NCBI GenBank assembly: GCA_948567375.1
Contig: OX419755.1
Span: 84,586,218-84,650,217 of the forward strand
DNA: 64,000 nt
Direction of reading: 5' to 3'
DNA from: Lunularia cruciata
Taxonomy: Eukaryota > Streptophyta > Marchantiopsida > Lunulariales > Lunulariaceae
Made by a program: the position numbers and the translations under genes. The notes below the pieces were generated by a model that saw only the letters and a list, made by a program, of their open reading frames with translations, was not told where the DNA came from and did not search any database. This document shows, piece after piece, positions 7,823-33,180 of this stretch (position 1 is its first letter; each line of letters opens with the position of its first letter).

Positions 7823-8189
7823 TAATAGCCATCAGAGCTTCATCCTGAGTCAGAGATAGGCTAGCTCACAATCCCATAGGTATTGGCACTTGGTGGTGCT
7901 TAGTTGGTGTTGGCATTTGGTGGTGAGGTACTTGCTATTGCGACCAGCAGTTGCAATTTGTGGTTCCGATTTGCGGTTGTAGTTGCGGTGACTTTGTCAC
8001 CATGGAGTTTGTTGGGAATTCTAGAGGAGTTAGCCGTGTAGTACATAGTGGGTTTACTTGGAGTGGTGCTCAATATCAGCTTGTATCTCAGGTCCCAATG
8101 AGGGAGGAGATTGACTCTAAGTTGGAGTTTGACACAAAAGTTGATTCAATTGAGTGCACTTGGTGTGTCCGCACTGTTGTTGTGGGACA
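7823..8189 (+). other. G2 leader or gag N-terminus, not resolved
   Basis: An 81-residue frame (7951-8196) is open but I recognise no domain in it. The first bases contain atcagagctt, similar to the start of tRNA-Met-type primer-binding sites. A G/T-rich low-complexity stretch follows (ttggtggtgcttagttggtg). It is continuous with recognisable gag from about 8190. Confidence 0.35.
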
Positions 8190-9260
8190 TGGATGAGATT
8201 TATGGGGCCTCCAAAGGCCTTAGGCATTACTTTGGTACAATGGGTACCATTGAGTTGGATGACTTCATCTAGGAGTTTGATAGTTGGTGTGATCTGCATC
8301 AGATGGGGAACTCGACTATGTTTACGTCCTTCATGGCATGGAAGGGGTTGTTTTAGCATCTGAAGGGTCTGCCGATGGATGACTACCATGAGTTCAAGAG
8401 AGCTCATTTGGAGGAGATTGAGTTATAGAGATAGTATTGGTCTCTAAACTATGTCTCCATCGCTTCAGGTTTGGTGGCTAGGAGTTGATCCGTTGTACCT
8501 ACGAGTTCTAGCTCAAGTAGTGTTGGTAGAGCTAGGGGAGGTACACTAGCTGGAGATAGTACTACTACGAGTGGAGGTACCATTACAAGAGGTGGTGTGG
8601 TACCAGGGTTTAATCCCATGGTGGAGTTCTTCTTGTGTTTGAGGTAGAACTACCAAGGAGTGCGGACTGACAAGCTGAGGAGCTTGTAGCAGTTCTTGCA
8701 AAAGGTTGGAGAGAGCGTATGTGAGGCATATACTTGCATGAGGTGGCTCATCAGTTTCACTCAAGGAGTTATTGAGGCCCAAGTAGTCCAATTTTGGTAT
8801 GGGATATTGGACAAGGAGTTACGACGTAGAGTTCATGATACTATGTTGTTACAAGCTACTTCGCCTACTTTGGTAGTGGTCTTTGGTTTGCTGATCATCT
8901 TGAGCTCAACATGGTGGAGGGTGGTGACATTTGGATTTGGTAGAGAGACCTCATCCACAGCTATAACTTCTTCTAGAGTGCACCAGAGTGCACCACACCC
9001 AATTGGTTTTTGAGGACAAGGTAGAAAACCTAGATCCTATGGAGTGAGTGGAGGGCCTAGTGGAGTTAGACCCTTACCTTCAATTTTGGGTCAGCAACAG
9101 CTAGTGAGTGATGGTGTTGCTTGTTGGACTTGTGGTGGACCTCACCATTGGAGAGAGTGTACTCAAGGCAATGGACTTGATACCTTGGGTGCATCACAGC
9201 CAACATAAAGGCAGTGTGAGCATTGCCATAGATTTGGTCACACAAGTGACTAGTGTTTTG
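8190..9260 (+). pseudogene. G2 gag with two CCHC zinc knuckles
   Basis: Gag-like phrases are YFGTMGTIELDDFI, EFDSWCDLHQMGNS, KGLPMDDYHEFKRAHL and, after a Ser/Gly-rich linker, VRTDKLRSL and ILDKELRRRVHD. Stops fall where Gln is expected (FI-stop-EFDSW, R-stop-YWSL), each TAG. Zinc knuckle one is CWTCGGPHHWREC (9123-9160, one residue short of the canonical spacing) and knuckle two is C-x2-C-x4-H-x4-C at 9215-9256 with a TAG inside. The protein would have packaged the element RNA. Confidence 0.78.
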
Positions 9261-10158
9261 ACCTACACCTAGAGTTACTGAGTGGTAGGGCTGCTATATC
9301 ATGTAGTAGAGGAGCTCAAGTTCATGGAAGATGAGGTGGTAGAGGATCTACACCTAGTAGGAGTGCAGTACCTGCCCTTACTTCTGATACATCTATGGCT
9401 ACTCGGATTGAGTAGTTGGAGTAGAGATTGGCTAGTATGGCCATTGCTCAAAAGAGATCAGATTCGGGTGTTGAGGCTTCCACCTCATATGCTAGTGACA
9501 GAGATGTGCGGACTGGACTTCATGTGCGGAGTAGCATAGGTGGATGCATCTGCAGTAGTGACTAGGAGTGCAGTACGTGCTCAAGAGCCTAGAGGAGCAT
9601 CAGTGGAGTTGGACCCATAGAGAGGAGAGGTTGGGAGATAGGTCAGAGTTCCCCAGTCTTTCATGCTATCTGAGGCATTGTAGACGACATCCATGGTTCC
9701 TAGATGTCCCAGTGCAAGTGTGGTAGGTGGTGATGGAGTACATGAAGGACTACCTACTAGTCAACCACTTGCTATTACACAGACTAAGTCTAGCATGATG
9801 TTGGAGGTGGCTCAGCTTATTATGCGGCGTCCTTTGCTTTTGGCCAATGACATGTTTACATTAGAAGTTGACCCAGCCCTAGTGTTCCGATTGGCTGCCA
9901 TGCTATGTGAGAGTAGGGATAATGCGGTTCCTACTACTAGAGCAAAGGTGGTTGGTAGTGGAGCTGACTTGGTTGAGGAGCATGGGATCCATTAAGCAAC
10001 CAATGGTTTATGGCAGGCAGCAATGGCTAGACTAGAGGAGTTGCCAGCTAGACCGGCCTTTAAGAGAGCACGGTTCACATCTGGTGTTGTCCTATTGGAT
10101 CACCAGAAGAGGATTTTCCGTTTGGTCGGACCTTCAGGGAAGGTCTATACACCACAAA
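9261..10158 (+). pseudogene. G2 gag-protease linker
   Basis: An open stretch (9693-9995, 100 codons) carries RCPSASVVGGDGVHEG and MTFTLEVDPA-like phrases of low complexity, followed by a second frame from 10023 (FKRARFTSGVVLLDHQ, then RLVGPSGKVYTPQ) that leads straight into the protease active site. I do not recognise an extra domain. The polyprotein probably ran through here in one frame before decay. Confidence 0.5.
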
Positions 10159-10810
10159 GACTCAGGTGCGTAGCCCCTTATGTTGGGGAAGAATGTAGTT
10201 GTCGGTCTGGAGTTACGAAAGACCGATGTGGAGAGGTATCCATTTCAGATCCAGACATCTCTAGGTGGTGGTTCAACATAATACATCACATGTGGGGAGT
10301 TTGTTGTCCAGGTTCAGCCTATTCATCCAACTGATAGCTTGGAGGTGAGAGCTCAGGCTATTGCAACAATAGCTGAGTCATATGATGTGTTAGTTGAGGG
10401 AGCAGTGTTATACCCCATGTGTTTCAATATTGACTATTAGGAGGAGACAACCTCCTATAGACCAGGTTGGCAGTCTGGTGAGAGATGGGTATGTCGCCTA
10501 CCAGTACGCTTCAGTAGTGGTAGTCTTGGCTCACTATAGTCTGGGACCATGGTAGCATTAGTTTTAGCTTTTAATGGTGCAGTTACTTGGCCTGGTGACT
10601 TGTTGGAGTGAAACGCCCATGTAAAAGATACTCCAGTACTAGAGGAGATCTCTTGGATTTGGAGTACAAGCGGGACTGTTCCGTCCACCTTGGATGTTCC
10701 ATTGTGGAGTTTAGAGGAAGCATTGCAGCAGCATGCAGATCAATTGGTGCAATAGGCTTGGAGTGGAGCCTTTGTGCCATCAAGAGATGAGTGTGAGGAT
10801 GAGCCTCCAA
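10159..10810 (+). pseudogene. G2 retropepsin-like protease and spacer
   Basis: The active-site triad D-S-G-A is at 10159-10170, followed by TAG (expected CAG) and PLMLGKNVVVGLELRKTDVE, then ERYPFQIQTSLGG, SYDVLVEGAVLYPMCF (the flap-end and LLxG-like hydrophobic element) and YRPGWQSG. The same frame, with single stops at about 10237, 10438, 10534, 10612 and 10753, continues without interruption into the methyltransferase, so the protease and DNMT were one polypeptide. The stretch 10440-10810 (TWPGDLLE, STLDVPLWSLEEALQQH) is a spacer of unknown role. Confidence 0.75.
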
Positions 10811-11870
10811 AGTCACTTACTTTGACACCTCTGGATACCACACTCATTGCTTGGCAATATTTAATAGAGGAGATATGTCTACTAGAGTTGTTTGGTGGGA
10901 TTAGCATTGGACTAGTTGGGGTATTACATGCGGGTATAAGTACATAGGTACTTGTATATAGAGAGAGATGAGACTACTAGGCGAGTCTCTCTACATCATG
11001 TGGCACACTTGGCCTATCAATATCTAGAGTTATTACCAATGTCAATAGTCAGAGGTTACCAGAAGGCCCTACCAATAGACATTTCCTTACTGGGGATGCA
11101 TGATCTTGAGAGACATGGGCCTATTCACTTGGTGATTTTTGGATGGCCATGTCAAGGACATACACGTGCTGGCTGAGGTTTAGGTCTTTAGGATCCTTGT
11201 TCTGGTGTGTTTTGGGAGATGTTACGGATACTACAACATCTCTAGGTTCATCAATCTTTTTCTCCAGCTTACCTTTTGGAGAACGTTCCTTTGATGGGTG
11301 ATTCTTGAACTAGAGTGGTGGTGAGTACACATCAAGGCCATTCTTGGATGGGACCTACTGTATTGTTAGATGCAGCCAGAGTGGGATCACGGGCTCATTG
11401 TCTTTGTCTTTGGTGGACAAACCTCTTACCCAAAGAGCTTTTATAGCATGCTTATGATGGGATTCAACAACTTGACCACATCCTTGTTGATGATATCTTG
11501 GATGTTGGGCGTCAGTCTTAGACATTGGTAGTGGCTGATAGGTCACCTATGGCAATGGTGAACCTAGTTGGACAGCCTAGAGCTTCATTTCCCACACTTA
11601 TGAGTTTCTCAGACTCTCATGCTTTTTGAGAGGGAGGACCTGGACTTGTTTGGGATTCATAATTACAATAGTTGGTGGAGCCTAATGCCGATGAGAGAGA
11701 GCGGGCAATGGGTTTTTGCACCAATATAACCGTTGTTCTAGCAATGTTAGAGGCCTCCAGGTGGTAGGTGTTAGGTCAGGCTATGGACCTAAACTGTTTG
11801 ACCTGGATTATGAGCCTTGGCTTGGCAGAGCAGCATAGGATGCACTTGATAGGCATCACCACTTGGACAC
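10810..11870 (+). pseudogene. Retrotransposon-encoded C5-cytosine DNA methyltransferase (DNMT) domain of G2
   Basis: Conserved motifs in order: I, LLELFGGISIGLVGVL (10879 onward; S-adenosylmethionine loop); II, LYIERDETTRRVSLHH (10952 onward); IV, IHLVIFGWPCQGHTRAG with the catalytic PCQ at 11147-11155; VI, YLLENVPL with ENV at 11279-11287; VIII, LLDAARVGSRAH followed by WWTNLL (11363 onward); then EPNADERERAMGF (11678) and X, VLGQAMDLNCLTWI (11768). A one-base frameshift lies between motifs I and II (about 10935-10950); after it a single frame holds to the end apart from stops, several of them TAG. The order and the PCQ/ENV pair are diagnostic of C5-MTases. The domain would have methylated cytosines in DNA. 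It lies between protease and RT, inside the polyprotein. DNMT-bearing gypsy elements are known to me from charophyte algae. Confidence 0.9.
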
Positions 11871-12160
11871 TTGCGAGTCATATGCCTATATCGAGATGAT
11901 TCTGGCACATGTTGGGGGTGATGGACCGAGTGGACATGGTATTCTTGGGACACAGCGAGTAGCTACTATGGAGAGTGGTCTACTTGGAGTCCATCAAGGT
12001 GAGTGTGGGCTACTTAAATTACACCCTTGGTCCACTTGGGATGTAGCTAGAGGACGTGTGGAGCTTGTAGCCAGAGTGGAGGGAGTTTTTCACACAGAGG
12101 TTGGGACCTCTAGTGGTCGGAGGCATGAAAGTATTGCTCACAAGGGCCCAGTGTAGTAGC
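11871..12160 (+). pseudogene. G2 spacer between DNMT and RT
   Basis: An open frame (11863-12156) reads HHHLDTCESYAYIEMILAH and then a Gly/Val-rich stretch. It follows motif X of the methyltransferase directly and precedes the RT, so it is polyprotein linker. I recognise no domain here. Confidence 0.45.
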
Positions 12161-13640
12161 CAGTCAGTACGTCTTCCACTCCTACTACAATTATAGAGGA
12201 TACTTGGGAGCCAGATCTTGAACCCAAGCTTACTAGAGAGGAAAGACGGAGGGTTTGGAGGTTCTTGAGGAGCCACACAAGTTGTTTTGCCTTTAGTATG
12301 AAGGATTTGGGTGCTTTGAAAGAACCTGGTATATGAATTGAGCTGACTAGCAATACACCAGTTTTCCGATGTCCTTATTGATATAGTGAGATGGAGAGGA
12401 CATTGATTTAGAGCCAGAGTAGTGACCTTTTTGAGGCTAGTTTGGTGGAGATTTCACATGGAAAGTATGCATCAGCGACAATAATGCCAGCCAAGAAGGA
12501 TATGCATGGCAACTACACAGATAGGCGGATGTGTGGAGATTACCCTCCTATCAACCGACAAACCAGGGCTGATTGGTATGCCATGCCTACACCGGAGGAG
12601 ATTTTTGATATGATTGGGCATGCAAAGGTCTTCAGTACTTTGGATCTTCAAGCAAGATATCATCAGTTGCCGATCAAGGAGGAAGATAAGTCCAAGACAA
12701 CATTCTGGGCTATTGATCCTCATGGCAATGATGTGTTATATCAATGGAGGTTCTTACCGTTTGGGTTAAAGAACTCTCCTGCTGAGTTCCAGAGGGTCAT
12801 GGATAGGATCCTAGCTGGATTAGATTTTGCTCGGTGCTATATTGATGACATTTTGGTCTATAGCACTACTATGGAGGAGCATGAGGGACAGTTTTTGGAG
12901 GTGTTTGAGAGGTTGAGATCTCATGGACTCAAATTACATCCTGGGAAGTGTAGGTTCTTCCATGAGCAGGTTGAGTATTTGGGTTACACTATTTACCCCG
13001 GAGGGTTTGGTGTTCAGCAGACCAAGGTGGAGGCTATTGCAGGTATTCGTCGGCCTACAGATGTGAGCAGAGTGCAAGCATTCCTTGGGTTGGCAAACTT
13101 CTATTGCCGCTATGTTAGAGGATTTAGTGCCATTGCCAAGGCTTTGACAAAGCTGACCAAGCTTACACATGAGTGGTGTTGGGGAGATGAGCAAGAGAGC
13201 TTTTTTAGAGCTCAAGGAGAGGTTTGCTCCTATTTTGAGGAGATCAATCAGAGGATGACCATTTCAGGTTATATTGATTGGAGTATGTTGGGGTTTGAAG
13301 TGGTGCTCGCCCAGCATGATGCTGAGGGGAAGGAGTTTGTGGTGGCCTATGCTAGTTGCTCCAACAATTCAGTAGAGGTGAAGTATAGTTCATATGAGAG
13401 AGAGTGCTTGGCAGCAGTTTGGGCAGTAGCACATTTCTGATGTAACCTATATGGTAACCCCTTCACTCTCATCACTGATCATCAGCCACTGAAGTGGTTG
13501 ATGGAGTCCGACAAGCTTTCAAGGTAGCTTGTACAATGGGCTCTGATTTTATAGGAGTATGTTTTCACGGTTGTTCACAAGCCTGGAGTGGTGAACTGTA
13601 CTGCAGATGGGTTGAGTAGAAACCCATGTCCTAGCCAGCA
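12160..13640 (+). pseudogene. G2 reverse transcriptase and RNase H
   Basis: Approach region: EDTWEPDLEPKLTREER and TPVFRCPY. The longest frame (12442-13440) holds the RT palm: SATIMPAKKD, RMCGDYPPIN, MPTPEEIFDMIGHAKVFSTL, RYHQLPIKEEDKSKTTFW, WRFLPFGLKNSPAEFQRVMD and the catalytic YIDDILVY (YIDD at 12838-12849, intact). Then FLGLANFYCRYVRGF (thumb), and RNase H with VVAYASCSNN, YERECLAAVWAVAHF, a stop, ITDHQPLKWLMESDK and NCTADGLSRNP. The first RNase H Asp sits in GYIDWSMLGFE. The catalytic residues of the RT are all present, making this the best preserved part of G2. Confidence 0.93.
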
Positions 13641-14533
13641 AGATCAGACCAAAGCACATTGGCATGGTGAGACAAATGAGGAGATGGTGCCAGGTTGGCA
13701 TGCATTGGCCTTTCTGTGTATATTTTTAGAGGCTTTGGTGGTATCTCTCTCAGTGCATATAGGAAGAGTTATTGAGGTCATAGATCCAAAGAGTGAAGAT
13801 ATTGGTACAGTTTAGCAAGACATTCATGATGATGTCTTAGTGATGGACTATCTTTGCACTGGTGTTGTGGGTGGCATAGTTGGAACCAAGGAGAGAAACC
13901 GTGTTCTTCAGCAAGCCAAACGGTTCAGATTGGAGGGTAAGCACCTTTTGCATGTATGGGAGGATGGTAGAGTGCGAGTAGTACCACTTCCATCTCAAAG
14001 ACCACAATTGGTCCGTCATGCTCATGAGGAGCTAGGACATTTTGGAGTCAAGTGTACATATAGCTTACTCCAAAGTCATTATTGGTGGTGCGGTATGCAG
14101 ACCAAGGTATAGCAGTTTGTTGTTAGATGTGTGGTTTGTGACCAAGTTAGAGCATCATTCAATGCTCCTATGCCATAGTTACATCCATTACTTATCATGG
14201 GATTGGGTTACCATTGGAGTTTGGACTTTGCTGGACCTTTACCGCTAACTATGAGGCATCATTGGTATGTCTTGGTGATGGTGTAGCACTTCTCCAAGTG
14301 GATTGAGTTGGTGGTACTTCCTGACAAGTCTAGTGAAGGGACACCTTACTCGTTCCTGGATCAAGTTCTTCGTGCACCAGCTAAGGTTTTGACTGATCAT
14401 GGTATAGAGTTCTTGGAGGAGTTTTAGGTCTTGTGTGACAAGGCTTTGATTGATCATCATACTACATCCCGAGATCACGCTAAGGCAGATGGCTTAGCAC
14501 AGAGAGTGGTTCAGACGGTGAAGAAAGGATTGT
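13641..14533 (+). pseudogene. G2 integrase, N-terminal zinc domain and most of the core
   Basis: The HHCC zinc domain is HAHEELGHFG (14011 onward) with CVVCDQVR (14128-14139 for the two Cys). Core: SLDFAGPLPL (first Asp, about 14221), VLTDHGIEFLEEF (second Asp, about 14389), then ADGLAQRVVQT with Gln (CAG, 14500-14502) in place of the catalytic Glu. The frame is cut at 14533 by the minus-strand solo LTR and resumes at 31011 after the ATTGT duplication. Stops replace Gln in several places (KV-stop-QFVV, MV-stop-HFSKW). Confidence 0.9.
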
Positions 14534-16744
14534 TGTGAAAACTTGGCAAATATCACTTTTGCGGTAATCGGGTAAGTAAAGTATGTTCCTGCAGAGATAC
14601 AAGTCAGAATTGGTCAAATACAAAGCAAAGTAACAATTTAGTTCTTCTTGAGTTCATCTTTAATCTCTCAGGTAGAAACCACACCCAGAAGACAGTAACA
14701 AGCACTGACTCGCAGTCTTGTCACAAATTCACACTTCTTAATCACAACTCCATCAAATCTTTCCAAACAATCTTGGTTGTGATTATTCAGGCTCTCTCAA
14801 AAACAACACTTCACTGCAAAACGACTTCGCCTCAGAATTGTGTTCCACCCCTCCACTGAAGGCACAACTTCCTCAATCAAAATTGCTTCACATCAACTTT
14901 GCACTGCACTCACAAATGTAGAATACTACCAACACTACAATTCCTCTCAAATCTGTCAAGGCATTGCTTTGATTGCACTTCACTCAGGATCAAACACACA
15001 GAATGAAGATCAAGGCTATGGAATCCAACATCCAACAAACACATTGACTTGCACTTTGAATTTCTCCAAACACTCACAAACACAATTGCAAAGCTGATAC
15101 TCGGAATCAAGCTCAAGCGACGAGCGCTGCTTCACAGCACTTCACTTTATCTATTCTTAGAATTATGAGCACTAAACAAAATTCTCTATGAATGCCACTC
15201 TTAAATAGTGAACAAATCGACAATTCTAACAACTATACCATTCTACAACAACTTTTCTAACCTGTAGATCCGAAATGACAATGCACCTCTTCATATCTGG
15301 CTCTTCAAATCTCAAAACTGTTACTACTCCGATCCAATGTCTTCTTCTTCCTCGGCTTTCAAACCCAAACCCGAAGTAAATTTACTTCCTACTACTCTTT
15401 CCTCGGGTTTCATATCTTCTACTTCTTCTACCAGATCCAACAATTCTCTTTCCTGATCTGAAATTGCACTAGTGGGTAACCCTTCTAAATATTCATCTCT
15501 CAACCCACTCTTCTCTAATGTCTCCATCGGTAATTCCAAAGACATCTGCACTCCTATGTTATCTACTTTGGGTTTTGCTTTAACATCTTTCCAAAGTTTT
15601 TCTATCTCTACTTTCACTAAGTCTAATCTAATTGAAATGTTGTCTTCTACCTCTAAGATCTTCTTGTCTACACGAGTTCTGAGACTAATTAGTAAGGCAT
15701 TCATATCTGTATCCTTTGCTTGTCTTCGCCTTGTCTCCTGCACCAACAGCTTCAACTCGTGCAGTCTTGTCTCTTGAATCCAAACGTTGGCCTCTGTACT
15801 TAGCATCGCATTCATCCGGAGAACTATCTCCTTCAAAGGCTCCAATCTCATCTTCCGCTCTTGTTCTTGATCCGCAAGCCAGTCCTCCCTGTACCTTGCC
15901 AATTCTGCTTTGAACTTGGCTTTCACCGTCTCCTTCTTCTTCTCCTCTGTACAACTCTCTCCTCCTGATTACGAAGTAACTCTCGTAATCTTTCTTCTTC
16001 TCTATATCGTGCTGCCAACTCTGGTTGCCAGAGTTGCTTCTTCTCCTCGACACTCTCCATCACCCTATTGAGCTCCTGATCCTTTGCAGCTACTCTCGCC
16101 ATAGCATAGATAACTTCTACTCTTGAATCAGCAAACTGCTGCTTCAAGATCTCGTACTCAGCTACTTGTCTCTCCCTTTCTATGTCACTCTTCTTCACAA
16201 GATCCTCTTGATAATGCACTTCTCTCTTCAGGTCTTCAATTACTTGACTTCTCACTACTGCCTCCGCTTGCAGTACTTCCCTTTCCTCCTCACCTTGGGT
16301 TATACTCTTCTTCAACTCCAAGTTTTCTTCTTCCAATCTTGCTAATACTTGCAACACAGTCTTCACCTCTGGACAAGTCAACTGCATCTCCTTCTTCCTG
16401 TACTCTAGCTTCACCAACAGAGGACACACAACTTCTTGCAGGTACTCCACTCCATCACTGGCAACTACTTCAACTTGTGGAGTGATCTCCTTCTTTACCT
16501 CTTCTTCTCCCAATACTTGCCTTCTTCTCTACAGTCGTCGTATTGGAATAGACGCCTCACTTCCCGAGCTTTCATGTGCTTCTTCCTTCACCATACTCGA
16601 ACCTGCTTTGTACTTCACCTTACGTCTTGAGCAAACTCCTCTCTGCATTGCAATCTTCTTTTCTTTGGGCTCAGTTACTTCATCTTCCAACTATGTGTTG
16701 TCCTCGGCTTTGATTTCTACCTACACTTCTTCTTCTTCTGCAAC
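14534..16744 (-). mobile_element. Minus-strand solo LTR of the A/C family, left part (3' half of the LTR)
   Basis: On the plus strand it begins with the reverse complement of the family LTR end (tgtgaaaacttggcaaatatcac). The other half is 29436-31005, ending ...GGCACCACA. Pentamer ATTGT stands at 14529-14533 and 31006-31010, so one LTR of 3781 bp was inserted in the G2 integrase and later split by element A at GCAAC. This part holds U5, R, the TATTTAA box (15201-15207, reverse) and most of ORF-b. No internal region belongs to it, hence solo LTR. Confidence 0.93.
15324..16513 (-). pseudogene. LTR ORF-b (coiled-coil protein) in the minus-strand solo LTR
   Basis: Two overlapping frames (15923-16513 and 15324-15926, shifted relative to each other) make up about 390 residues. 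Order: VEYLQEVVCPLLVKLEYRKK, long heptad-like Leu/Glu/Arg/Lys helices (ELAARYREEERLRELLRNQE), then ETRLHELKLLVQETRRRQAK, ILEVEDNISIRLDL, and the tail SGLGLKAEEEEDIG before the stop at 15324. One frameshift near 15925 is the only break, so this is among the best kept copies and shows the intended C-terminus. The acidic N-terminal part lies beyond element A, before 29597. Confidence 0.75.
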
Positions 16745-17126
16745 TGTGGTGCCCACATTTTTTTTTTCAAAATAAAGGAGAAGAAGTGTATAGAGAAGTT
16801 GGATTGTGCCTGTATGACCAAAGAAGGCGAAGAAAAGAGTCTTCGGGATGAAACCCAAAGTAAAGTGACTTTGGGTCATAAGGCAAAGTACTCCAAAATG
16901 CCCTGTCAGCATACAACCCGAAGTAAATTGTCTTCGTATCGGGGGGAGCTCAACCCGAGGTGAAGACAGTCTAACAACCTTTTGTCGGGGCGAGAAATTC
17001 AAGAAGGGGACGTTTAAAAATTGGCGGCCCATACGCGCAAAGGTTTATTGACAGTGACAGGTGCATGCCGGAGGTGTGATTTCTTGGTAGAAACTCAAAG
17101 TGACGGAAGACAAAGAAGCGCAACTC

Positions 17127-17134
17127 TATAAAAA
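17127..17134 (+). promoter_or_regulatory. TATA box of the LTR-internal gene (5' LTR of A)
   Basis: TATAAAAA stands 27 nt before the ATG of ORF-a. The spacing of 27 nt is the same in the 3' LTR of A (26406 to 26433), in the minus-strand solo LTR (30619 to 30592) and in the LTR at 58343-62125 (61738 to 61711). Transcription would start at or just before the ATG, giving almost no 5' leader. Confidence 0.65.
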
Positions 17135-17153
17135 TTGAACTTGCAACAACAAA

Positions 17154-18143
17154 ATGTCAAGTAATTTTCCTTCGCCGTTGAGAAGTCGTCTTACAGGTGA
17201 TCAAGGGAAGGGAAATAGAGTTGGAATCGTGTTAGTGTGCAAGGGAGAAGTCGCGAGAGTGAAATCAAGAGAGAGGGAGAAAGTAGAAGAGATGGGAGGA
17301 GCAAAGAAGAACTCTGAATTTGTAGTGAGAAATCATGCAATTCGAAGGTTAGATGTAATAGCAAGGATCAAAGTCTTGAGCCGACTTTGGATCACATATC
17401 TGGCATGGAACTGGAATGTAAGCTTTCCAAGATTCATGACAAAAATCATCAAGAGTAAGTGTCTCGATGGACCCGAGGAAGAAGGGAAGAGAGGAAATCC
17501 GGCTTGCTAGACAGAGTCGGATTGGAGACTTGTACTCGGGAAGGAGGCAGGCTCGGAGCAAGGAGCCACGTTCTTGGGGAAGGGAGAGATAGCTCAGGAG
17601 ACTCAGGAGGTGAGAGATGGTTTCTCTTTGAAGAGAAAGAAGAATGGGTATAAGGTTGAGAGTTACAAGGATCCAGTGAAGAGAGGGATTGTGAGTGCTC
17701 TCATGGCAATCTTGAAGCCAGAGAGAACAACTTATGTGATGAAGCACCAAGCGGTGTTCTTCCATAAGTTGTTTGCAGGAGAACCTATTAATTGGGCGGG
17801 GTGCTTCCATGGGAGGACAAGACAGATGCTATGGAATTTGCGGGATAAATTGCCACCACACTACATCGTGCCATTTGTAGCACATTTTTACCTCAGGTTG
17901 AATTTGCTCAACTCGGCGGAGTGAAACAAAATGGTGTTTCATTTCCATCCCAACTTGAGAAGAGACGTCGACGTGGATGAACAATAGATCATTCTTCAAA
18001 TCTGAAGCACGGATGAATACTACATGAAGACAGGTAAGAGCGTGGAGATAGAAGCAAGTACTCCAAAGTCAAAGAAGAGGGGTCAGCAAGGGGAAGCCAA
18101 AGACATCAAGAAACCTCGGAAGATGCAGAGAGGCAACCCGAGG
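17154..18143 (+). pseudogene. LTR ORF-a, 5' LTR of A
   Basis: ATG start, reading MSSNFPSPLRSRL. One frame runs to the TGA at 18144-18146 with TAG at 17508 (TGG in the 3' LTR, so Trp to stop) and stops near 17922, 17985 and 18003. The intact version, in the solo LTR, is 330 residues. It has a basic N-terminus, a globular middle with HAIRRLDVIARI, LWITYLAWNWNVSF, GYKVESYKDPVKRGIVSA and ERTTYVMKHQAVFFHKLFAG, a WNLRDKLPPHYIVPFVAHFY block, and a Lys/Arg-rich end (KKPRKMQRGNPR). No RT, protease or other retroviral domain is seen. I do not recognise a family; a nucleic-acid-binding or structural role is only a guess from the basic ends. Confidence 0.7.
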
Positions 18144-18149
18144 TGAAGT

Positions 18150-19720
18150 ATGATGGTGATTGAGTCGGAGGATGAAGACTCAGAAGGAGATGCCGAGCTC
18201 AAAACTGAAGACTCGGAACACGAGGAGGAGCCTGAGCTAACATTGCAGAGCGGAGATACGAGCAGTGATAGTGATGAAGGGGGAGAGATGACATTGGCGC
18301 TAGTGGCTGAAGAAGAAGAGAAAGAAGTGCAAGCGGAGATAGAAGCCGAAGAAAACACATAGTTAGAAGCGAAATAACTGTGCCCAAAGAAAAGAAGATT
18401 GCTGTACAGCAAGGAGTTTGCTCGAGACGTAAGGCGAAGTGTGAAGCGGGCCGAGTAAAGTGAAGGAAGAGGTAGGAGAAAGCTCGAGAAGTGAAGCATC
18501 AATTCCGATACAAAGACTGCAAAGAAGAAGGCAAGTATCGGATGAACACGAAGTACGAAGAGAAGTCGCCACACACGAAGAAGTAACTACGAGCAATGGA
18601 GTGGAGTACCTGCGAGAAGTGGTGTGTCCTTTGTTGGTAAAGTTAGAACATAAGAAGAAGGAAATGCAGTCGACATGTCCAGAGGTAAAGACTGTGTTGC
18701 AGGTATTGACCAAATTAGAAGAAGAAAACTTGGAGTTGAGGAAGAGTGTAACCCGAGGTGAGGAGGAAAGAGAAGCACTACGAGTAGAGGCAGTAGAGAG
18801 AAGTCAGGTAATTGAAGACTTGAAGAGAGAAGTGAGCTATCGGGAGGATCTTGTGAAGACGAGTGACATAGCAAGGGAGAGACAAGTAGCGGAGTATGAG
18901 ATCTTGAAGCAGCAGTTTGCTGATTCAAGAGTAGAAGTAATCCATGCTATGACGAGGGTAGCATCAAAAGATCATGAGCTCGATAGAGTGATGGAGAGTG
19001 TCAAGGAGAAGAAGCAACTCTGGCAAAGAGAGTTGGCGGCCCGATACCGAGAAGAAGAACGACTACGTCAATTACTTCGTAATCAGGAGGAGAAGGTTAT
19101 ACAGAAGGAGAAGGAGAAGGAGACGGTGAAAGCCGAGTTCAAAGCGGAGTTGGCGATGTACCGAGAGGATTGGCTTGCAGATCATGAGCGTGAGAGGAAG
19201 ACAAGAGTGGAGCCATTGAAGGAGATAGTACTCCGAATGAATGCAATGCTAAGTACAGAAGCCAGTGTTCGGATTGAGGAGACGAGACTGCACGAGTTGA
19301 AGTTATTGGTGCAAGAGACAAGGCAAAGACAAGCAAAAGACACAAACATGAACGCTTTGTTAATCAGTCTCAGAACTTGTGTAGACAGGAAGATATTAGA
19401 AGTAGAAGACAACATTTCAATTAGATTAGACTTAGTGAAAATAGAGATAGAAAAACTTTGGAAGGATGTTAGAGCAAAACCCAAAGTAGATAACAAAGGA
19501 TTGCAAATTTCTTTGGAGTTACCATTGGAGACATTAGAGAAGAGTGGGTCGGGAGATAAGGAGTTAGATAGATTACCCACTAGTGGAATTTCAGATCAGG
19601 AAAGAGAATTGCTGGAATTGGTAGAAGAAGTAGAAACCCGAGGACAGAGTAGTAAGAAGTAAGATTACTTCGGGTTCGGGTTTGAAAGCCGAGGAAGAAG
19701 TAGACATCGGATCGGATTAG
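18150..19720 (+). pseudogene. LTR ORF-b, acidic plus coiled-coil protein, 5' LTR of A
   Basis: It begins MMVIESEDEDSEGDAEL, 3 nt after the ORF-a stop. There is an acidic segment (about residues 1-70), a basic linker, then from 18460 a 400-residue open frame: VEYLREVVCPLLVKLEHKKK, long helices with heptad-like spacing (ELAARYREEERLRQLLRNQE, RTCVDRKILEVEDN) and the most conserved block, ETRLHELKLLVQETRQRQAK. Breaks are the stop and small indels between 18360 and 18460 and a frameshift near 19655, after which the family tail SGSGLKAEEEVDIGSD and stop (19718-19720) follow in the next frame. It looks like a structural or scaffold coiled-coil protein; the function is unknown. Confidence 0.75.
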
Positions 19721-19842
19721 TAACAGTTTTGAGATTTGAAGAGGCAGATATGAAGAGGTGCATTGTAATTTTGGTTCTGCATTGTAACTTTACTTACCCG
19801 ATTACCGCAAAAGTGATATTTTCCGGGTTGTCACATGATTTT

Positions 19843-19860
19843 TGGCGCCACTGCCGGGGA
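19843..19860 (+). other. Primer-binding site of element A (tRNA-Asp type)
   Basis: TGGCGCCACTGCCGGGGA lies seven bases after the LTR end. The complement of the plant tRNA-Asp 3' end is TGGCGCCGTTGCCGGGGA, so 16 of 18 positions agree. It would have primed minus-strand cDNA. Confidence 0.85.
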
Positions 19861-19874
19861 TACAAATCTCAGAA

Positions 19875-21584
19875 ATGGAAGAATATGAAGCCCAATTCAA
19901 AACTGGGTATCAATGCAATATGAATGTTTGCATCGAGAGAACAACGGGAAGAGAGATCTCGAAGATGAGCACTTCAGCATGAAGAAGACGAACATCTAAA
20001 CATCCCATCCACTGTGGATGAAACCAAACAAGAGGCGTTGGACTTTCAACTCCTTCACAAAGTACAAGAAGCCCTGCAAGAACTTGACCACAAGAAACAC
20101 GAAGGCGGTTGGCAAGGCTACTTTGCATCTCCCTCTTCGACCAAGAAGAAGAAAGACTCAAGCGGCCAAACATATGCATTGCAGCCCAGTACACCAACTT
20201 CCCCTAGAGCTATAAAGGAAGTCATATCCTTGAAGAACTTTGTTCGTGAAAAGACAGCATGAACACTTATTGAAGATGAGTGTCAGCATCTTCTACGAAC
20301 GATTCCTTGGTTGTCCCAAAGGAATTTTGAAGAACCAATCGAAGGTGTTGATCCTGGATCTTCCACTTGGGTTGAAGTCAACACCCTCATAGCAGAAATT
20401 GTTGAAGAAGACCCCACCTTGAATTTGACAAATTGGAATCCCTGGGCTGACAACACGGCGTCAATACCAGCCAATCCTTCAATTCCGTCAAGTTCAACAC
20501 TACCTCAGCCAATCCCAATGCATCAAACAATGACTTTGCTGCCTGTCACCCGACACGCCTATCAGAAGTACAAGAGGACAGAACAAGATGAAGACCCCGA
20601 TGAATTCATCAAAGAATTCAAAGTCATCTCCTTTGCTAACAAGGAGCATGACTCGGCGGATCGACTGATAATTTTCCCAAGTTTGCTCCAAAAGAAAGCT
20701 CGGAGCTGGTACATTCATGTGACCCAAAAGGGTTTGTACCAGCGGATTGGGCAGACTTGAGAAACAACTTCCTGGAACAATTCTGTGAGGTTGATTATGA
20801 CACAAGTGTCTTCACAGCACTCAACAATTTGGACCAAGGCAAGAAGGAGAAGTTGAGAGACTACTCTGAGCGGTTCATGGCATTACTGAACCGAGTTCCC
20901 AAGCATTCGCGGGTGGTGGGTTACTCCAATGCCCAAGCCATTACCTGGTTCCTCGGGGGACTGTCACCAGAGATACGGATCTTTGCAAGGGAGAGGAATG
21001 TAACTTCCCTAGACAAAGTACTCAAACATGTCACTCGTTACGATGCAACCCACTCTCACTCTGCCGGCAACCGGAGAAATTGGGAGAAGAAAGGTAAGAA
21101 GCCCAGAAGGAGAGCTTCACACAGTACATCCTCTTCTTCGGAAGAATCCTCCACGTCTTCAAGCTCTTCTTTGGAATCCGAAGAAGAATCAAAGCCAAGA
21201 CGAGTCAGAAGATGTGGAGGCAAGAAACCAATAACTCCTCCAGCAAAGAGTGTAAATAAAGCTGATACCAAGCTGGATGCCCTCATCAAGGAGTTTTTGG
21301 ATTTCAAGACCCAGATGATTGGGGCTAAGGCCCAAAGGAAGGCCCAAGCGTTTGGAAGATCGAATGTATGGTGCACCGCATGTGGCAAATCAGGCCACGC
21401 CAACACAGAATGCAATACTCGTAATGCATTCCCGGTGCAACAAATTGATTGGGTTCCGAGATGGAACCAAGATGAGGACAAAGAGGCTGTGTACCAAACT
21501 CAAGAAGTACAACCTCAAGCGAGCACATTGTATCAAGGTCCGAGGTTTGGATCTAGGGAGTATAACCCCAATGCTCCTTCATGA
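19875..21584 (+). pseudogene. Element A gag
   Basis: The likely start is ATG at 19875 (MEEYEAQFKTGYQ), 15 nt after the primer-binding site, though early stops follow. The recognisable capsid domain is in two frames: 20311-20760 (YQKYKRTEQDEDPDEFIKEF, LLQKKARSWYIHV) and 20757-21584 (NNFLEQFCEVDYDTSV, KEKLRDYSERFMALLNRVP, WFLGGLSPEIRIFARE). The frames are joined by loss of one T at about 20733: element C has GGTTTTGTACC where A has GGTTTGTACC. A Ser-rich, Lys/Arg-rich linker follows and then zinc knuckle one, CTACGKSGHANTEC (21372-21413). Confidence 0.9.
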
Positions 21585-22175
21585 AGACCACCAATGAGCA
21601 ACCAAAATCGCCCTCAGAATGTTACACCCGGAGCCTGTTACAATTGTGGCTCGATGGGACATTGGTCTCCAAACTATCCCAAGCCAAGAAGGCAAATTGG
21701 GTATGTTCCCCTATGTGGAAATTGTAAAGGATCGGGGCATACGGGCAACCAATGTCCTCACCCACCGAACCCGAAGCCGCCTGTAAAGTATGTACAGACC
21801 CCTGCTGAGCGTGCAGCACTTCAGCCAAAGGGGGATACTAATGTAAATTGCATTACTCTTGAGGAAGAAAGACCTCAAGAAGGGAGTCCGGCCTCGAAAG
21901 GAGAATGGCCGGACCTTGAAATTTTGAAAGTTGAGACACGCTCTAGTAAGAAGAAGCGTGATCCCGAAGAACTGAGTATGACCTTGTCGTCTTCCAGAAA
22001 GGCAAAGAGACTGCGCCCAAAGGCAATTCTTTCTGCCAAGGAGGAAAAGATCCTTGCAAAAGCCAAAGCTAAAGCCTTGCAGAAAGAACTAAAGGAGGCA
22101 CTACTCAGGACTCGGGAATTGAGTTTGGAAGAGGAGATGAAGACTAAGTCTCCAGTTTTTACGGTGGACATCTGA
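21585..22175 (+). pseudogene. Element A zinc knuckles two and three and pre-protease linker
   Basis: Knuckle two (21636-21677) reads CYNCGSMGHWSPNY: its last Cys is Tyr here (TAT), whereas element C has Cys at this place, so A's knuckle is damaged. Knuckle three, CGNCKGSGHTGNQC (21714-21755), is intact. A long Lys/Glu-rich linker follows (KILAKAKAKALQKELKEALL). Three zinc knuckles in tandem is an unusually long array for a plant gypsy gag. An in-frame TGA at 22173-22175 separates it from the protease frame. Confidence 0.85.
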
Positions 22176-22205
22176 TCCAAAGTAAAGGGTCTGATCCAAG
22201 CCGAA

Positions 22206-23309
22206 GTGGGCCAACCCGAGGAACCTCGGGTTAAGGCCATTAGCAAGCCCGTCACCATTTTGAAGCGTCCCAAAGTCAAGAGGGAACATGGAGAGACTTT
22301 GGACCCAAAGCCGAAGGCGAAGACGGTCAAATTGGGAGGAGTTCCCCAATATGATATTGTAGCTGATCTGGCAGCCACAAATGCCAATGTTACATTCACG
22401 CAATTGTGGGAAGATAACAAGCTGTACAAGAGGCAGCTGAATTCGGCACTCAGGAAGGTGAGGTCGATGTCAAAGAAGGATCTGCCTGCTATCTATCATA
22501 TTGAGCAAGAAGATTTGGGATCTCCCAAGGTAGACACAGAGATTGCCGCGTGCATGATCACATCAATACCCATTGATTCTGGGTCCGGTGTGAATGTCAT
22601 GACCAAAGATACTGTGAATCGGCTCGGGTATCACACGTTTGAACCAACACCCCGAGTGTTGAAATTTGCAGACCAAACCAAGAGACGGCCTTTGGGCATG
22701 CTGTCGAACATTACCTCAATCATTGGAGGGGTACCCTTCAAGTTGAACTACATCGTGTTGCAACCAGTGACAAAGACTGGTTACCCTTTGTTGATTGGCA
22801 GACCCTGGTTGTATAATGCCCAAGTTGTGGTGGATTGGCATCAGCAAAAGTTAAGATTCAAGGACATTTCATCCAAAGATCAGAAGCTGGTGACTGTGAG
22901 TTGGACAAAGGTTCCCCATCTTGGGGAAAAAAATTCGTCAAAAGAGGAGGACAAATCCAAAGACTCATCGTCTTTGTCCTCAGACAAATCCGAAGACGAA
23001 GTCAAAGTTAATTACTTGGAATGCTACAAGGTGGATGTTGAAGATGAAGATCCACATGACCTTGCCTCGGGTGAACCTGACTTGGAGGAAGGGGGTTTGA
23101 TGGCAGCTCGCCTCGGGTTAAGCCGAGTAAGCCACGTTGAAGGAGTCATCAACCCCGATGACTGTCAAGATGTTTTATTAATTGAAGGAAAAATTTTGAA
23201 AATCTTGAAGACAGTCACTTCGGAGGAGTTGGCAGGATACACTACCCTGTTTATAAAATTCCAGGATGTATTTGCCTGGTCTATTGATCAAATGCCGGGT
23301 ATTCCATGA
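22206..23309 (+). pseudogene. Element A protease and linker to RT
   Basis: The first codon is GTG, a frame resumption rather than a start. The retropepsin active site is IPIDSGSGVNVM with Asp at 22575-22577 in a proper D-S-G. Then come TPRVLKFADQTKRRPLGM (flap region) and TGYPLLIGRPWLYNAQVVVDW, the hydrophobic LLIGRPWL element. The acidic linker ends in FQDVFAWSIDQMPGIP, the phrase that normally leads into gypsy RT, and is cut by TGA at 23307-23309. The protease residues are intact in this copy. Confidence 0.9.
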
Positions 23310-23914
23310 GAATTCGGAGAACACCGGATTGATCTGTTTGAAGGTGCAGTTCCGGTTTGGCAGCGGCAATACCGCTTGAACCCGAAGTACTCGCTGTTGG
23401 TAAAAGATGAGATCGTCAAGTACTTAGGGGCCAGAATCATCTTCCCTGTCTTAAGCAGTGAATGGGTTTCCCTCATTGTCATTGTCTTGAAGAAGAAAAC
23501 AAGGAAGATCCAAGTGTGCCAAGACTTCCGGAAGTTGAACGCAGTCACAAGGAAAGATCATCATCCCTTGCCTTTTACCGATACAATTTTAGATTAGGTA
23601 GCTGGGCATCCTTGTTATAGTTTTCTCGATGGATTTTCAGGGTACAATCAAGTATCTATTCGAGAAGAAGACAAGGATAGGGAAGAAGGAACAAAAATAG
23701 ATTCCCGACCGATTGGTGCACTTTTGCTTACAATCAAATGCCCTTTGGGTTGTGTAATGCTCCTGCTACTTTTCAGCGGATGATGAATTCAATCTTCAAA
23801 GATTTCCTGTGCAAATTTGTGGAAGTTTTCATTGATGACTTTTATGTGTTTGGGTGAAGAGATGTACATTTAGATTACCTTCGCCAAACTTTTGAAAGGT
23901 GTCGTTTTGCCGGC
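23310..23914 (+). pseudogene. Element A reverse transcriptase, N-terminal and palm part
   Basis: PVWQRQYRLNPKYSLLVKDE, SSEWVSLIVIVLKKKTRKI, CQDFRKLNAVTRKDHHPLPF, a TAG at 23594, CYSFLDGFSGYNQV and IREEDKD. At about 23676-23705 a short insertion and rearrangement (gggaagaaggaacaaaaatag...) replaces the TTFTTDWGTF coding seen in element C and shifts the frame. Then PFGLCNAPATFQRMMNSIF and the catalytic IDDF at 23831-23842. The insertion plus TAG make the RT inactive. Confidence 0.9.
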
Positions 23915-25831
23915 TTGTCATTACACCCGGAGAAATGCTTCTTTGCAATGAAGGAGGGAATTCTTCTGGGGCATCGGGTGTCAAGCCGAGGTATTGAAGT
24001 CAATGTTGAGAAGGTTAAGATAATCGCAGCTTTGGAATCCCCAAAGAACATCCGGGAGTTGAGAGCCTTCTTGGGACATGTCGAATACTACAGACGCTTT
24101 GTGTCAAACTATACAGTGCTTGTTGGACCACTTACAAAGCTTCTAAAGAAATCCGAGGACTATCTGTGGGAAGCAAATCAAGAAGGAGCTTTCCAGGTGT
24201 TGAAGAAGAAGCTGGTTGAAGCACCAGTTATGAGGGCCCCAAATTGGGACGTCCCTTTTCATGTATATGTGGACACTTTGTCCATGGCCATCAGACTCGT
24301 TTTAAGTCAAAGGGACGAAAAGAAGAAGGACTACCCGGTGTATTATGCCAGCCGACAACTTTCAGTTTCTGAAAAGAACTATTCGACGATTGAAAGAGAA
24401 GCACTCGGAATGGTATATGCCTGCAAGAAATTTTGCCATTATCTGTTGGGGTACGAGTTTGTCTTCTATGTTGACCATTACGCCTTGCAACATTTGGTCA
24501 AGAAGGCAGATTTATCTAGGCAAATTGCTAGATGGATCTTGTTGTTACAAGAGTTCACATATACTATACAAGTAAGGAAGGGATCTTTGCATTCAAATGC
24601 GGACTTCCTATCCAGGTTAGAGACTCAAGACCAGGAGTGGGAAATTGACAATTGGTTCCCTGACGAAGAGTTGTATCACTTATCAGCAATGCAAAGTACG
24701 AGGTATGTAGCTGAATATCATTATCTGAATACTCTCCATTGTCTTGAGGGGATGGACCTGGAACAGCGGGCAGTCTTTCTCAGGAAAATGGGGCCGTACC
24801 AGCTTAAACACAACATTTTATTTAAGATGTGCAAAGACAAAGTACTTTGGCGATGCTTGGAGATATATAAAGTAGGCGGAGTGATTGAATCTTTGCACTC
24901 CGAAGCATCAGGAGGACACTATGCTCTAAAGAATACTGTAAAGAAAATTCTTTTGGCAGGGTATTGGTGGCCTACAATGTACAAAGATGTACATGCTCAT
25001 ATCCAAAGCTGTGATGCTTGTCAGAGAACGGGGAAGCCGATGGCTACTTCTCAATGGCCTTTGAGACCAATTTTGCCTTTGGCCCCATTTGAGAAATGGG
25101 AGATTGATTTTGTGGGTCCCATTCAACAAGTGACCCAAGTAACAAGAAAGCGATACATTTTGGTTTGCACTGACTATGCTACCAAGATGGTTGTAGTTGA
25201 AGCAACTTGCAGAGATGATGCTGAAATGGTGGCGGAATTTTTCTTTCAAAACATCATCTCCCAATATGGGTGTCCTCAAGAATTGGTCAATGACCAAGGA
25301 ACACATTTTTTGAACTCTATAATGGAGGCGTTAACCAAGTACTTTCAGATTAAAAATCGGAAGATGACTCCTTATAACCCAAAAGCAAATGGCTTAACTG
25401 AAAAAGCGAATGGGTTACTTTGTAAAATTTTGAATAAGGTGACTGTCAATTATGCCTATGATTGGGATACCAAATTACCAGTCGCGTTGTGGGCCTATCA
25501 AATGACAGAAAAGATTACAACCAAAAAAACTCCATACTTCTTGACATATGGCTTGCATCCCATACTGCCAGTTGAATTTGAAGTGCCGACATATCGAATT
25601 CTTTGCGAAGAACAAATGTCGGAAGAAGACAGTCAGGATCTTCAGATTCATCAACTGATGTGGTTAGAAGAGAAAAGAGACAATGCAATGCAAACCACGA
25701 AAGAAGTACAAGCACAGAGGAAAGTCAGGCACAATAAGAGAATCAAGCCTGTGGCGGTATGTGAAGGAGATTTGGTTTTGTTATATGACAATCACCAAAT
25801 ATTTTTTCCAAGCAAGTTGCATTTGAGATAG
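23915..25831 (+). pseudogene. Element A RT thumb, RNase H and integrase
   Basis: A 638-residue open frame, the longest pol piece in the window. RT end: ELRAFLGHVEYYRRFVSNY. RNase H: HVYVDTLSMAIRLVLSQ, YYASRQLSVSEKNYSTIERE, YVDHYALQHLV, HSNADFLSRL. Integrase zinc domain: LHSEASGGHYALKNT with CDACQRTG. Core: WEIDFVGPIQ (first Asp), VNDQGTHFLNS (second Asp), ANGLTEKANGLLCK (Glu), so the D,D,E triad is present. The C-terminal part has YDNHQIFFPSKLHLR before the TAG at 25829. It would have integrated the cDNA with 5-bp duplications, as seen at every site here. Confidence 0.93.
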
Positions 25832-26019
25832 ATGGGTCCCTATCAAGTTCTTCATCATTACAAAAATGGGTCCATGCAGCTTGTAGACTTGGAAGGTAAT
25901 CCTTTTGCCACTCGAGTAAATAGGTGGAGAGTTCGGAGATATTGGACCATAGACTCTGAAGTTTCTAAAACACCCGAGGTCTATGTTCGAGTGGACGCTC
26001 ACATTTGAGGGAGGAGGTA
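25832..26019 (+). pseudogene. Element A integrase tail and polypurine tract
   Basis: The frame continues after TAG: MGPYQVLHHYKNGSMQLVDL, NPFATRVNRWRVRRYW and VRVDAHI, then a stop. The purine run tgagggaggaggta (26006-26019) abuts the 3' LTR and is the plus-strand primer. There is no chromodomain and no extra ORF between integrase and LTR; the extra genes sit inside the LTR. Confidence 0.88.
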
Positions 26020-26405
26020 TGTGGTGCCCACATTTTTTGTTTTTTTCAAAATAAAGGAGAAGAAGTGTATAGAGAAGTTGGATTGCGCCTATATGGCCAA
26101 AGAAGGCAAAGAAAAGAGTCTTTGGGATGAAGCCCGAAGTAAAGTGACTTCGGGTCATAAGGCGAAGTACTCGAAAATGCCCTATCAGCATACAACCCAA
26201 AGTAAATTTTCTTCGTATTGGGAGGAGCTCAACCCGAGGTGTAGACAGTCTAACAACCTTTTGTCGGGGCGAGAAATTCAAGAAGGGGCCGTTTAAAAAC
26301 TGGCGGCCCATACGCGTGAAGGTTTATTGATAGTGACAGGTGCATGCCGGAGGTGTGATTTCTCGGTAGAAACTTGAAGTGACGGAAGACAAAGAAGCGC
26401 AACTC

Positions 26406-26413
26406 TATAAAAA
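26406..26413 (+). promoter_or_regulatory. TATA box of the LTR-internal gene (3' LTR of A)
   Basis: TATAAAAA, 27 nt before the ORF-a ATG at 26433. Position in the LTR (about 387 nt from its start) matches the 5' LTR. Confidence 0.65.
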
Positions 26414-26432
26414 TCAAACTTGCAACGACGAA

Positions 26433-27077
26433 ATGTCAAGTAATTTTCCTTTGCCCTTGAGAAGTCGTCTTGTAGGTGATCGGGGGAAGGGAAATAGAGT
26501 TGGAATCGTGTTAGTGCGCAAGGGAGAAGTTGCGAGAGTGAAATTGAGAGAGAGGGAGAAAGTAGAAGAGATGGGAGGAGCAAAGAAGAACTCCAAATTT
26601 GTAGTGAGAAATCATGCAATTCGGAGGTTAGACGTAATAGCAAGGATCAAAGTCTTGAGCCGACTTTGGATCACATTTTTGGCATGGAACTGGAATGTAA
26701 GCTTTCTAGGATTCATGACAAAAATCATCAAGAGTAAGTGTCTCGATGGACCCGAGGAAGAAGGGAAGAGAGGAAATCCGGCTTGCTGGACAGAGTTGGA
26801 TTGGAGACTTGTACTTGGGAAGGAGGCAGGCTCGGAGCAAGGAGCCATGTTCTTGGGGAAGGGAGAGATAGCTCAAGAGACTCAGGAGGTGAGAGATGCT
26901 TTCTCTTTGAAGAGAACAAAGAATGGGTATAAGGTTGAGAGTTACAAGGATCCAGTGAAGAGAGGGATTGTGAGTGCTCTCATGGCAATCTTGAAGCCGG
27001 AGAGAACAACTTATGTAATGAAGCACCAAGCAGAAGATGCAGAGAGGCAACCTGAGGTGAAGTATGATGGTAATTGA
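26433..27077 (+). pseudogene. LTR ORF-a, 3' LTR of A (internally deleted)
   Basis: MSSNFPLPLRSRLVGDRGKG, then the same globular core as the 5' copy but without the TAG at the CWTEL position, so 206 codons are open up to MKHQA. There a deletion of about 367 bp removes the WNLRDKLPP block and fuses the frame to the ORF-a end in another frame. This shows the 5' LTR stop arose after insertion. A truncated product only. Confidence 0.65.
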
Positions 27078-28642: not shown

Positions 28643-28758
28643 TAACCGTTTTGAGATTTGAAGAGGCAGATATGAAGAGGTGCATTGTCATTTCGGATTT
28701 GCAGGTTAGAAGAGTTGTTGTAGAACGGTATATTTGTTAGAACTGTCAATTTGTTCAC

Positions 28759-28765
28759 TATTTAA
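28759..28765 (+). promoter_or_regulatory. TATTTAA box, presumed genomic-RNA promoter of A
   Basis: CACTATTTAAGAGTGGCATTTG, about 115 nt after the ORF-b stop and 670 nt before the LTR end. The same box is at 4294, 41711, 51221, 57662 and 63923 on the plus strand and at 15201-15207 in reverse. It is deleted from the 5' LTR of A. Confidence 0.6.
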
Positions 28766-30592: not shown

Positions 30593-30612
30593 TTCTTTGT
30601 TGCAAGTTCAAG

Positions 30613-30619
30613 TTTTATA
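30613..30619 (-). promoter_or_regulatory. TATA box of the intact ORF-a copy
   Basis: Reverse-strand TATAAAA starting at 30619, 27 nt from the ATG at 30592, in the same place as in both LTRs of A. Confidence 0.65.
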
Positions 30620-31726: not shown

Positions 31727-31901
31727 TGACCTATAGCTAGTTCATTCTTTGTATGGTATAGATTGCAGACAGGCAACTAATGATGGGGCTCCATAGCACC
31801 CGGCCTCTTGATCTTTGCCTATTATAGGGTATACCATATACTTAGAGTAGATGGTTTTCTAGAGTTAGAAGGACCTAACCACCAGCTAGGGGGGGGGCCA
31901 T
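31727..31901 (+). other. G2 3' untranslated region and polypurine tract
   Basis: No ORF. It ends in ccagctagggggggggcca, a purine run with a nine-G core (31889-31897), directly before TGTGGCACTTTAG. This is the expected plus-strand primer site. Confidence 0.7.

Positions 31902-33176: not shown

Positions 33177-33180
<4 letters not shown>

Follow-up and report, generated by a model that had tools for sequence, protein, structure and literature searches.

Does a cytosine methyltransferase-like stretch within a decayed Ty3/gypsy element of the liverwort Lunularia cruciata belong to that element, and if so, what would a retrotransposon do with it? The window, that is, the whole stretch of DNA analysed (64,000 nucleotides of contig OX419755.1), carries a DNMT3-type cytosine methyltransferase (DNMT) between the retropepsin and the reverse transcriptase (RT) of such an element (Table 1). 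An initial annotation, made from the sequence alone, had placed C5-methyltransferase motifs between these two domains, and they are there: DSGA starts at 10159, PCQ at 11147, ENV at 11279, LGQAMDLNCL at 11771 and YIDD at 12838. The Pfam search it proposed gives a significant match to PF00145 in the main DNMT frame, translated from 10952 onward with stops written as X (E 2.6e-5, 24.3 bits, curated cut-off 22); neither the protease pieces of this copy nor a 49-residue fragment holding just motif I had a Pfam match. Chance resemblance is excluded because relatives match the DNMT stretch at up to 63% identity over 99% (E 1.8e-119); those named as Marchantia polymorpha and Calypogeia fissa have 52-64% identity over 50-99% of 300 residues.

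The annotation had also described one frame interrupted by a single one-base shift. The shift is present, with LLELFGG (motif I) in the protease frame and the remaining motifs in the next frame from 10940, but it is not the only damage: besides this frameshift near 10939 there are 10 in-frame stops, 7 at sites where R or Q predominates among six relatives, and 2 others at sites that are R or Q in two of the six. Motif VIII reads AHCLCLWWTNL, versus AHRPRLWWTNL in relatives, with arginines read as cysteine. The one-base shift is damage private to the window copy, since in all 20 copies sampled elsewhere in the genome the DNMT is a single tblastn match in one frame.

Table 1. Features of the DNMT-bearing element in the window (positions counted from the first letter of the window).
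Feature	Positions	Strand	Evidence
5' untranslated leader remnant	7905..8190	+	82% identity to leader of copy L012
gag, decayed, with two zinc-knuckle-like motifs (by eye)	8189..9541	+	tblastn, Marchantia P0001 44%, P0002 49% (to 9499)
Retropepsin-like protease (DSGA)	10159..10482	+	tblastn, Marchantia P0013; longer matches of P0005 and others; no Pfam match
DNMT3-type cytosine methyltransferase	10855..11860	+	PF00145, homologs, alignment, stop count
UAG between gag-protease-DNMT and RT frames	12154..12156	+	Same place conserved in other copies
RT (YIDD 12838) and RNase H	12205..13660	+	PF00078 2.6e-30 and PF17917 8.1e-12 on 12442-13440; tblastn
Integrase, H2C2 part and first part of DDE core	13804..14533	+	PF17921 7.5e-16; PF00665 3.7e-7
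Younger nested LTR-element insertion(s) splitting the integrase	14534..31005		5-bp target duplication ATTGT, 14529-14533 and 31006-31010
Integrase, C-terminal part	31010..31585	+	tblastn, P0038, 43% identity
PHD finger ending the RT-integrase frame	31586..31726	+	Alignment to PHD-bearing relatives; PF00628 2.2e-10 in copy L017
Repeat B1 (part), start approximate	31899..31970	+	Repeat comparison with other copies, including L012
Repeat A2, about 450 bp	31971..32421	+	87.6% identity to repeat A of L012
Repeat B2, 3' end of element	32421..32523	+	94% identity to L012 B region; A2/B2 junction

Two parts of this anatomy had been missed: the 16.5-kb nested insertion, past which the integrase picks up again at 31010, and the 3' end of the element near 32520. 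CpG observed/expected is 0.58 in the insertion versus 0.25 in the DNMT element that it splits. The PF00665 score of the integrase, 30.8 bits, lies slightly below the cut-off of 32.6. Repeat A1, the start of the leader and the 5' end of the element were not found in the window, the leader match starting at 7905. The standard primer site (TGGTATCAGAGC) has one match in the window, with 2 mismatches and outside the element, which is below chance expectation. A second, diverged A and B repeat remnant of the DNMT family (72-76% identity) lies on the minus strand at 53038-53445.

Is the DNMT a regular part of the element? The initial annotation had considered the host a seed plant or other land plant; a land plant it is, though a liverwort and not a seed plant, and a neighbouring gypsy pol is nearest, among named species, to the liverwort Riccia sorocarpa. 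The host genome comprises 565,766,749 bases in 74 contigs; searching it for PF00145 brought up 2161 initial candidates. From these, 123 were scored and found to match, mostly over about profile positions 48-120. The exact DNMT/RT junction (CCCARTRTAGCAGCCAGTYAGT) has 938 genome matches, and its reversed control 0; with a full-length copy of about 9.9 kb, the family would make up about 1.6% of the genome if all were full length. Twenty copies were sampled, most of them selected because their open frames are long. Every one has colinear protease, DNMT, RT/RNase H and integrase at near-constant spacing, with gag present in 19 (not in L023) and the PHD finger in 19 (not in L019). As the annotation had claimed, the DNMT is thus part of the polyprotein and not a neighbouring gene, and its suggested search for further copies turned up 12 of the 20 with no stop in the DNMT, the other 8 holding a stop. 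The window copy is one old, methylation-decayed member of an abundant family which, judged from its repeats, was apparently recently active in its liverwort host. The L. cruciata genome is about twice the size of those of its relatives, mainly through Ty3/Gypsy bursts (PMC9985172, whose main text has no word starting with "methyl").

Where does the domain come from? Its motif order is linear (I-IV-VI-VIII-X) and its best match is DNMT3. A profile of nine retrotransposon-borne DNMTs (retro-DNMTs) scored 88 bits against DNMT3A, 43 against DRM2, 38 against HaeIII and 33 against DNMT2 in the PDB, with DNMT3A and DNMT3B leading; chain 4onj, labelled only as a DNA methyltransferase, scored 52 bits, and up to E 0.01 no chain named DNMT1 appeared. 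A DRM methyltransferase was considered and rejected, the motif order being unpermuted, versus the rearranged VI-X before I-IV of DRM. In the tree that the annotation had called for, run with a narrower set of cellular enzymes (DNMT3A plus the host's DNMT3 and DRM), the retro-DNMTs group as a single clade with support 100, apart from cellular DNMT3 despite the unpermuted order and best profile match that they have in common with it. Nested within this, also with support 100, is a clade of bryophyte retro-DNMTs with metagenome proteins P0003 and P0006, and the window DNMT groups among the host copies; sampling in this tree is thin and its root is not fixed. The RT tree, likewise thinly sampled, without a fixed root and excluding P0034 and one short window gypsy, sets 10 DNMT-bearing elements apart from 14 gypsy RTs with no listed DNMT (support 100). 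Marchantia itself has been described as having five DNA methyltransferases in three classes, with no DNMT3 (PMC5784723). The Lunularia genome has a two-exon DNMT3-type gene of its own, with DNMT3A as its best PDB match, and also a permuted DRM-type frame (permutation read by eye).

Named hosts of the DNMT relatives are Marchantia polymorpha, M. paleacea, Riccia sorocarpa, Calypogeia fissa, Sphagnum fallax and S. troendelagicum, and others come from metagenomes; no vascular plant is named among the 120 listed of 199 matches, most of which are nameless proteins. Motifs I, IV, VI, VIII and X are recognisable throughout the liverwort and metagenome relatives, and across 28 relatives, Sphagnum left aside, the P of PC and the EN are invariant and the C of PC is kept in at least 90%. 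Marchantia P0005 and Sphagnum P0037 likewise have a DNMT flanked by protease and RT. That an independent DNMT gene or retrogene landed in a gypsy element by chance, a reading in whose favour the one-base shift of the window copy is the sole point, is refuted by the 20 colinear copies with the DNMT in the same place, by these two relatives and by the separation of DNMT-bearing elements in both trees, and can be given practically no chance. Within this one retrotransposon lineage the domain has probably moved, since metagenome proteins P0041 and P0042 carry a DNMT-like stretch N-terminal to the RT. Metagenome proteins P0038, P0039 and P0040 have the order RT-RNase H-DNMT-integrase-PHD; a C-terminal extension of P0039 looks by eye like another methyltransferase (DPWAGTGT ... 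TSPW).

What kind of element carries the enzyme? Its repeats are split direct repeats in the order A1-ORFs-B1-A2-B2. Among 10 copies with flanks, A1 and A2 (about 450 bp) were seen in 9 and not found in L024; their identity is 97.3-99.8% in 8 of the 9 and 88.2% in L026. B1 and B2 (about 107 bp), with a short polypurine run directly upstream of B1, are in all 10. Target duplications of 4 bp flank 7 of the 9 testable copies and are absent in L012 and L026. An ordinary LTR element was rejected: sequence past the 3' copy of A is alike in the ten copies and is repeat B2. A chromodomain follows the integrase in chromoviruses, a Ty3/gypsy group, and this candidate was rejected on the PHD finger found there instead in L017. 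DIRS elements have a tyrosine recombinase in place of a DDE integrase and are not known to make target duplications; a DIRS element was rejected on the 4-bp duplications and on a Pfam scan of two frames, in which rve and Integrase_H2C2 were present and PF00589 was not. In its repeats the family resembles DIRS elements and KnitGypsy-Dnmt3, and its integration looks like that of a DDE integrase; this combination would be accounted for if a circular intermediate were opened at the boundary of B with A.

KnitGypsy-Dnmt3, from the charophyte Klebsormidium nitens (de Mendoza et al., 2018; PMC5890265), is the closest comparison. It too is described as having a DNMT3-type domain within a gypsy polyprotein, a DIRS-like arrangement A-coding-B-A-B with gypsy domains, purifying selection and methylated copies, and the Lunularia family likewise has gypsy RT, RNase H and DDE integrase. 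The hosts differ, an alga versus a land plant, and so does the place of the enzyme: the KnitGypsy DNMT is described inside the Pol ORF, whereas that of Lunularia ends the gag-protease frame before UAG-CARYYA. No protein named as K. nitens occurs among 42 matches, nor among the 120 listed of 199, and the comparison is one of architecture. SymbioDIRS-Dnmt3 and SymbioLINE-Dnmt are also retrotransposon-borne DNMTs, that of the DIRS elements being of DNMT3 type, but they travel in dinoflagellates with tyrosine recombinase or LINE machinery (PMC5890265), unlike the DDE integrase here; the annotation's mention of such elements in charophyte algae and dinoflagellates agrees with this source.

The position of the DNMT qualifies the earlier claim of polyprotein membership: it belongs to the polyprotein but lies upstream of a conserved UAG, outside the RT-integrase frame. 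The layout is gag-protease-DNMT, then UAG-CARYYA, then RT-RNase H-integrase-PHD. UAG closes the DNMT frame in 20 of 20 copies, and the RT match starts in the same frame as the DNMT in 19 (the exception being L028). The six bases that follow fit CARYYA in 19 (18 CAGCCA and 1 CAGCTA, with CAGCTT in L010); in the window copy the codon after UAG is TAG, versus CAG in the 20. In 4 copies that were read, the nearest methionine downstream of UAG is 41-48 codons away. Tobamoviruses have UAG-CAR-YYA as their type I readthrough signal (PMC3542737). The UAG is probably a tobamovirus-type leaky stop, with readthrough predicted from this context; unlike the viral case, it lies at the gag-protease-DNMT/RT boundary of a plant retroelement. 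The DNMT falls on the Gag side because UAG-CARYYA ends its frame ahead of the RT.

Another possibility is that no stop was programmed here and that decay turned CAG into a TAG that became fixed. Decay in this family is mostly C>T or G>A, a change that fits 63 of the 68 stops seen elsewhere in six domains of the copies. Against this, when any codon is allowed at the junction there are 964 genome matches, 938 of them with TAG, and the 100 listed comprise 95 TAG, 3 TAA and 2 sense codons (1 GAG, 1 CAG); decay also leaves the near-constant CARYYA to be explained. P0001 and P0002 (Marchantia) and P0004 (Calypogeia) stop 77-79 residues beyond the domain, which again speaks for a programmed stop; taken together, these points make fixed decay improbable. 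The distance from DNMT domain to frame end is 106 residues in the host copies versus 57-79 in P0001-P0004. Since frames end 77-79 residues past the domain in these proteins, and 95-117 in P0015-P0017, the gag-side layout is likely the same in relatives. In the metagenome relative P0034, the DNMT continues into the RT with no stop, and the Marchantia gene models P0005, P0007, P0012 and P0013 extend into the RT; given these and the differing DNMT-to-end distances, support for the leaky stop is confined to the Lunularia genome.

Has the enzyme been maintained? Variants were counted among the 20 copies, dropping for each domain those whose match covered less than 93% of it. DNMT variants seen once are 71 nonsynonymous to 28 synonymous, where about 0.71 nonsynonymous is expected under neutrality; those shared by at least 2 of the 20 copies are 26:25 (Fisher p 0.019; binomial against neutrality p 0.002). 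The shared DNMT variants show purifying selection. Corresponding counts (once, then shared) are 45:21 and 5:22 for gag (17 copies), a stronger constraint than on the DNMT, 82:41 and 18:23 for RT/RNase H (17 copies), 19:11 and 5:10 for protease (20 copies, p 0.11), 8:6 and 2:2 for the PHD finger (19 copies, few counts), and 33:14 and 13:4 for integrase (16 copies), with no selection signal. The test is coarse, because gag is more constrained and the integrase lacks a signal; length of open frame also guided the choice of most of its copies, and 8 of the 20 have a stop in the DNMT.

Decay of the window copy bears on methylation from the other side. Its DNMT differs from that of L017 at 103 sites, 72 of which are C>T or G>A: 22 of 62 in CG, 31 of 119 in CHG and 19 of 320 in CHH contexts. 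CpG observed/expected is 0.21 in this DNMT versus 0.43-0.53 in the 20 copies. This pattern is consistent with plant methylation, and indicates that the window copy was long methylated, by the host or by its own enzyme; host methylation alone would do, and the retro-DNMT is unnecessary to explain it.

What, then, might the enzyme do? Methylation by the element of its own DNA or that of the host, as the annotation had suggested, would be in keeping with the conserved motifs and purifying selection. An active enzyme is quite probable. The best reading of the family, and a likely one, is of an abundant, recently active Ty3/gypsy-type element that makes its DNMT at Gag level and methylates its cDNA. 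Rare readthrough of the UAG would yield small amounts of RT-RNase H-integrase-PHD, and the methyltransferase would be made in bulk as Gag-PR-DNMT. It would travel in the particle, be freed by the protease and most likely methylate fresh double-stranded cDNA before or at integration, so that the new copy would start out methylated much like host DNA. The PHD finger that ends the integrase probably binds a histone H3 tail at the target as a reader. That the element's own cDNA is the main substrate is an even call.

Another possibility is that RNA is what the domain works on, or that it has a structural or nucleic-acid-binding role, DNA methylation being unimportant in either case. Its place in one frame with gag and protease would suit such a role, as would low PF00145 scores (e.g., 30.5 bits in L024), and a Symbiodinium LINE-borne DNMT gave no DNA methylation in yeast (PMC5890265); the catalytic-type motifs kept recognisable in relatives argue for an enzyme instead, and leave this rather unlikely. 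Somewhat better placed, yet still unlikely, is a DNMT acting chiefly on host chromatin or genes, as a weapon against silencing or competing elements. Encoded on the Gag side in hundreds of copies, an enzyme of de novo type could enter the nucleus, and host methylome effects are discussed by de Mendoza et al. (2018; PMC5890265), but no sequence feature suggesting a nuclear role for free DNMT was noticed, and the decay of the window copy is of the ordinary plant CG/CHG pattern.

If methylation of its own cDNA is indeed what the element does, self-methylation would be a working life strategy at hundreds of copies, beyond two algal groups. The usual roles would be reversed: transposons are normally targets of DNA methylation, and here the spreading element brings the enzyme. 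A DNMT ahead of a leaky stop makes a sharp, testable prediction on stoichiometry and packaging. The role of the retro-DNMT is testable in planta because relatives occur in Marchantia polymorpha, a genetic model with mutants and methylomes. The Lunularia family shows the persistence of DNMT-bearing retrotransposons in bryophytes; that a long-lived land-plant lineage, from liverworts to Sphagnum, combines a capsid-level de novo DNMT, methylation of its own cDNA and a PHD-bearing integrase is a tentative extension, somewhat short of an even chance. DNMT-bearing transposons have been stated to be absent from land plants, such as tracheophytes (PMC6338049), and searches of the open-licence literature turned up no description of a DNMT-bearing retrotransposon from a land plant, which is not proof of absence. 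The kind of element is already known from a charophyte and dinoflagellates and, as far as this literature shows, is found here for the first time in land plants; what is new is a DNMT on the Gag side, ahead of UAG-CARYYA, together with the PHD finger and the abundance in a land plant. The main text of PMC5890265 does not contain "PHD", "gag" or "readthrough", and has "stop codon" once, about LINE copies.

The rest of the window holds other elements, nested and inverted, with long repeats at 14530-16739, 27228-29439, 40733-42387, 50242-51888 and 58341-60453, some of which carry a coiled-coil-like reading frame. CpG observed/expected is 0.11 at 32000-40000, versus 0.35 for the whole window.
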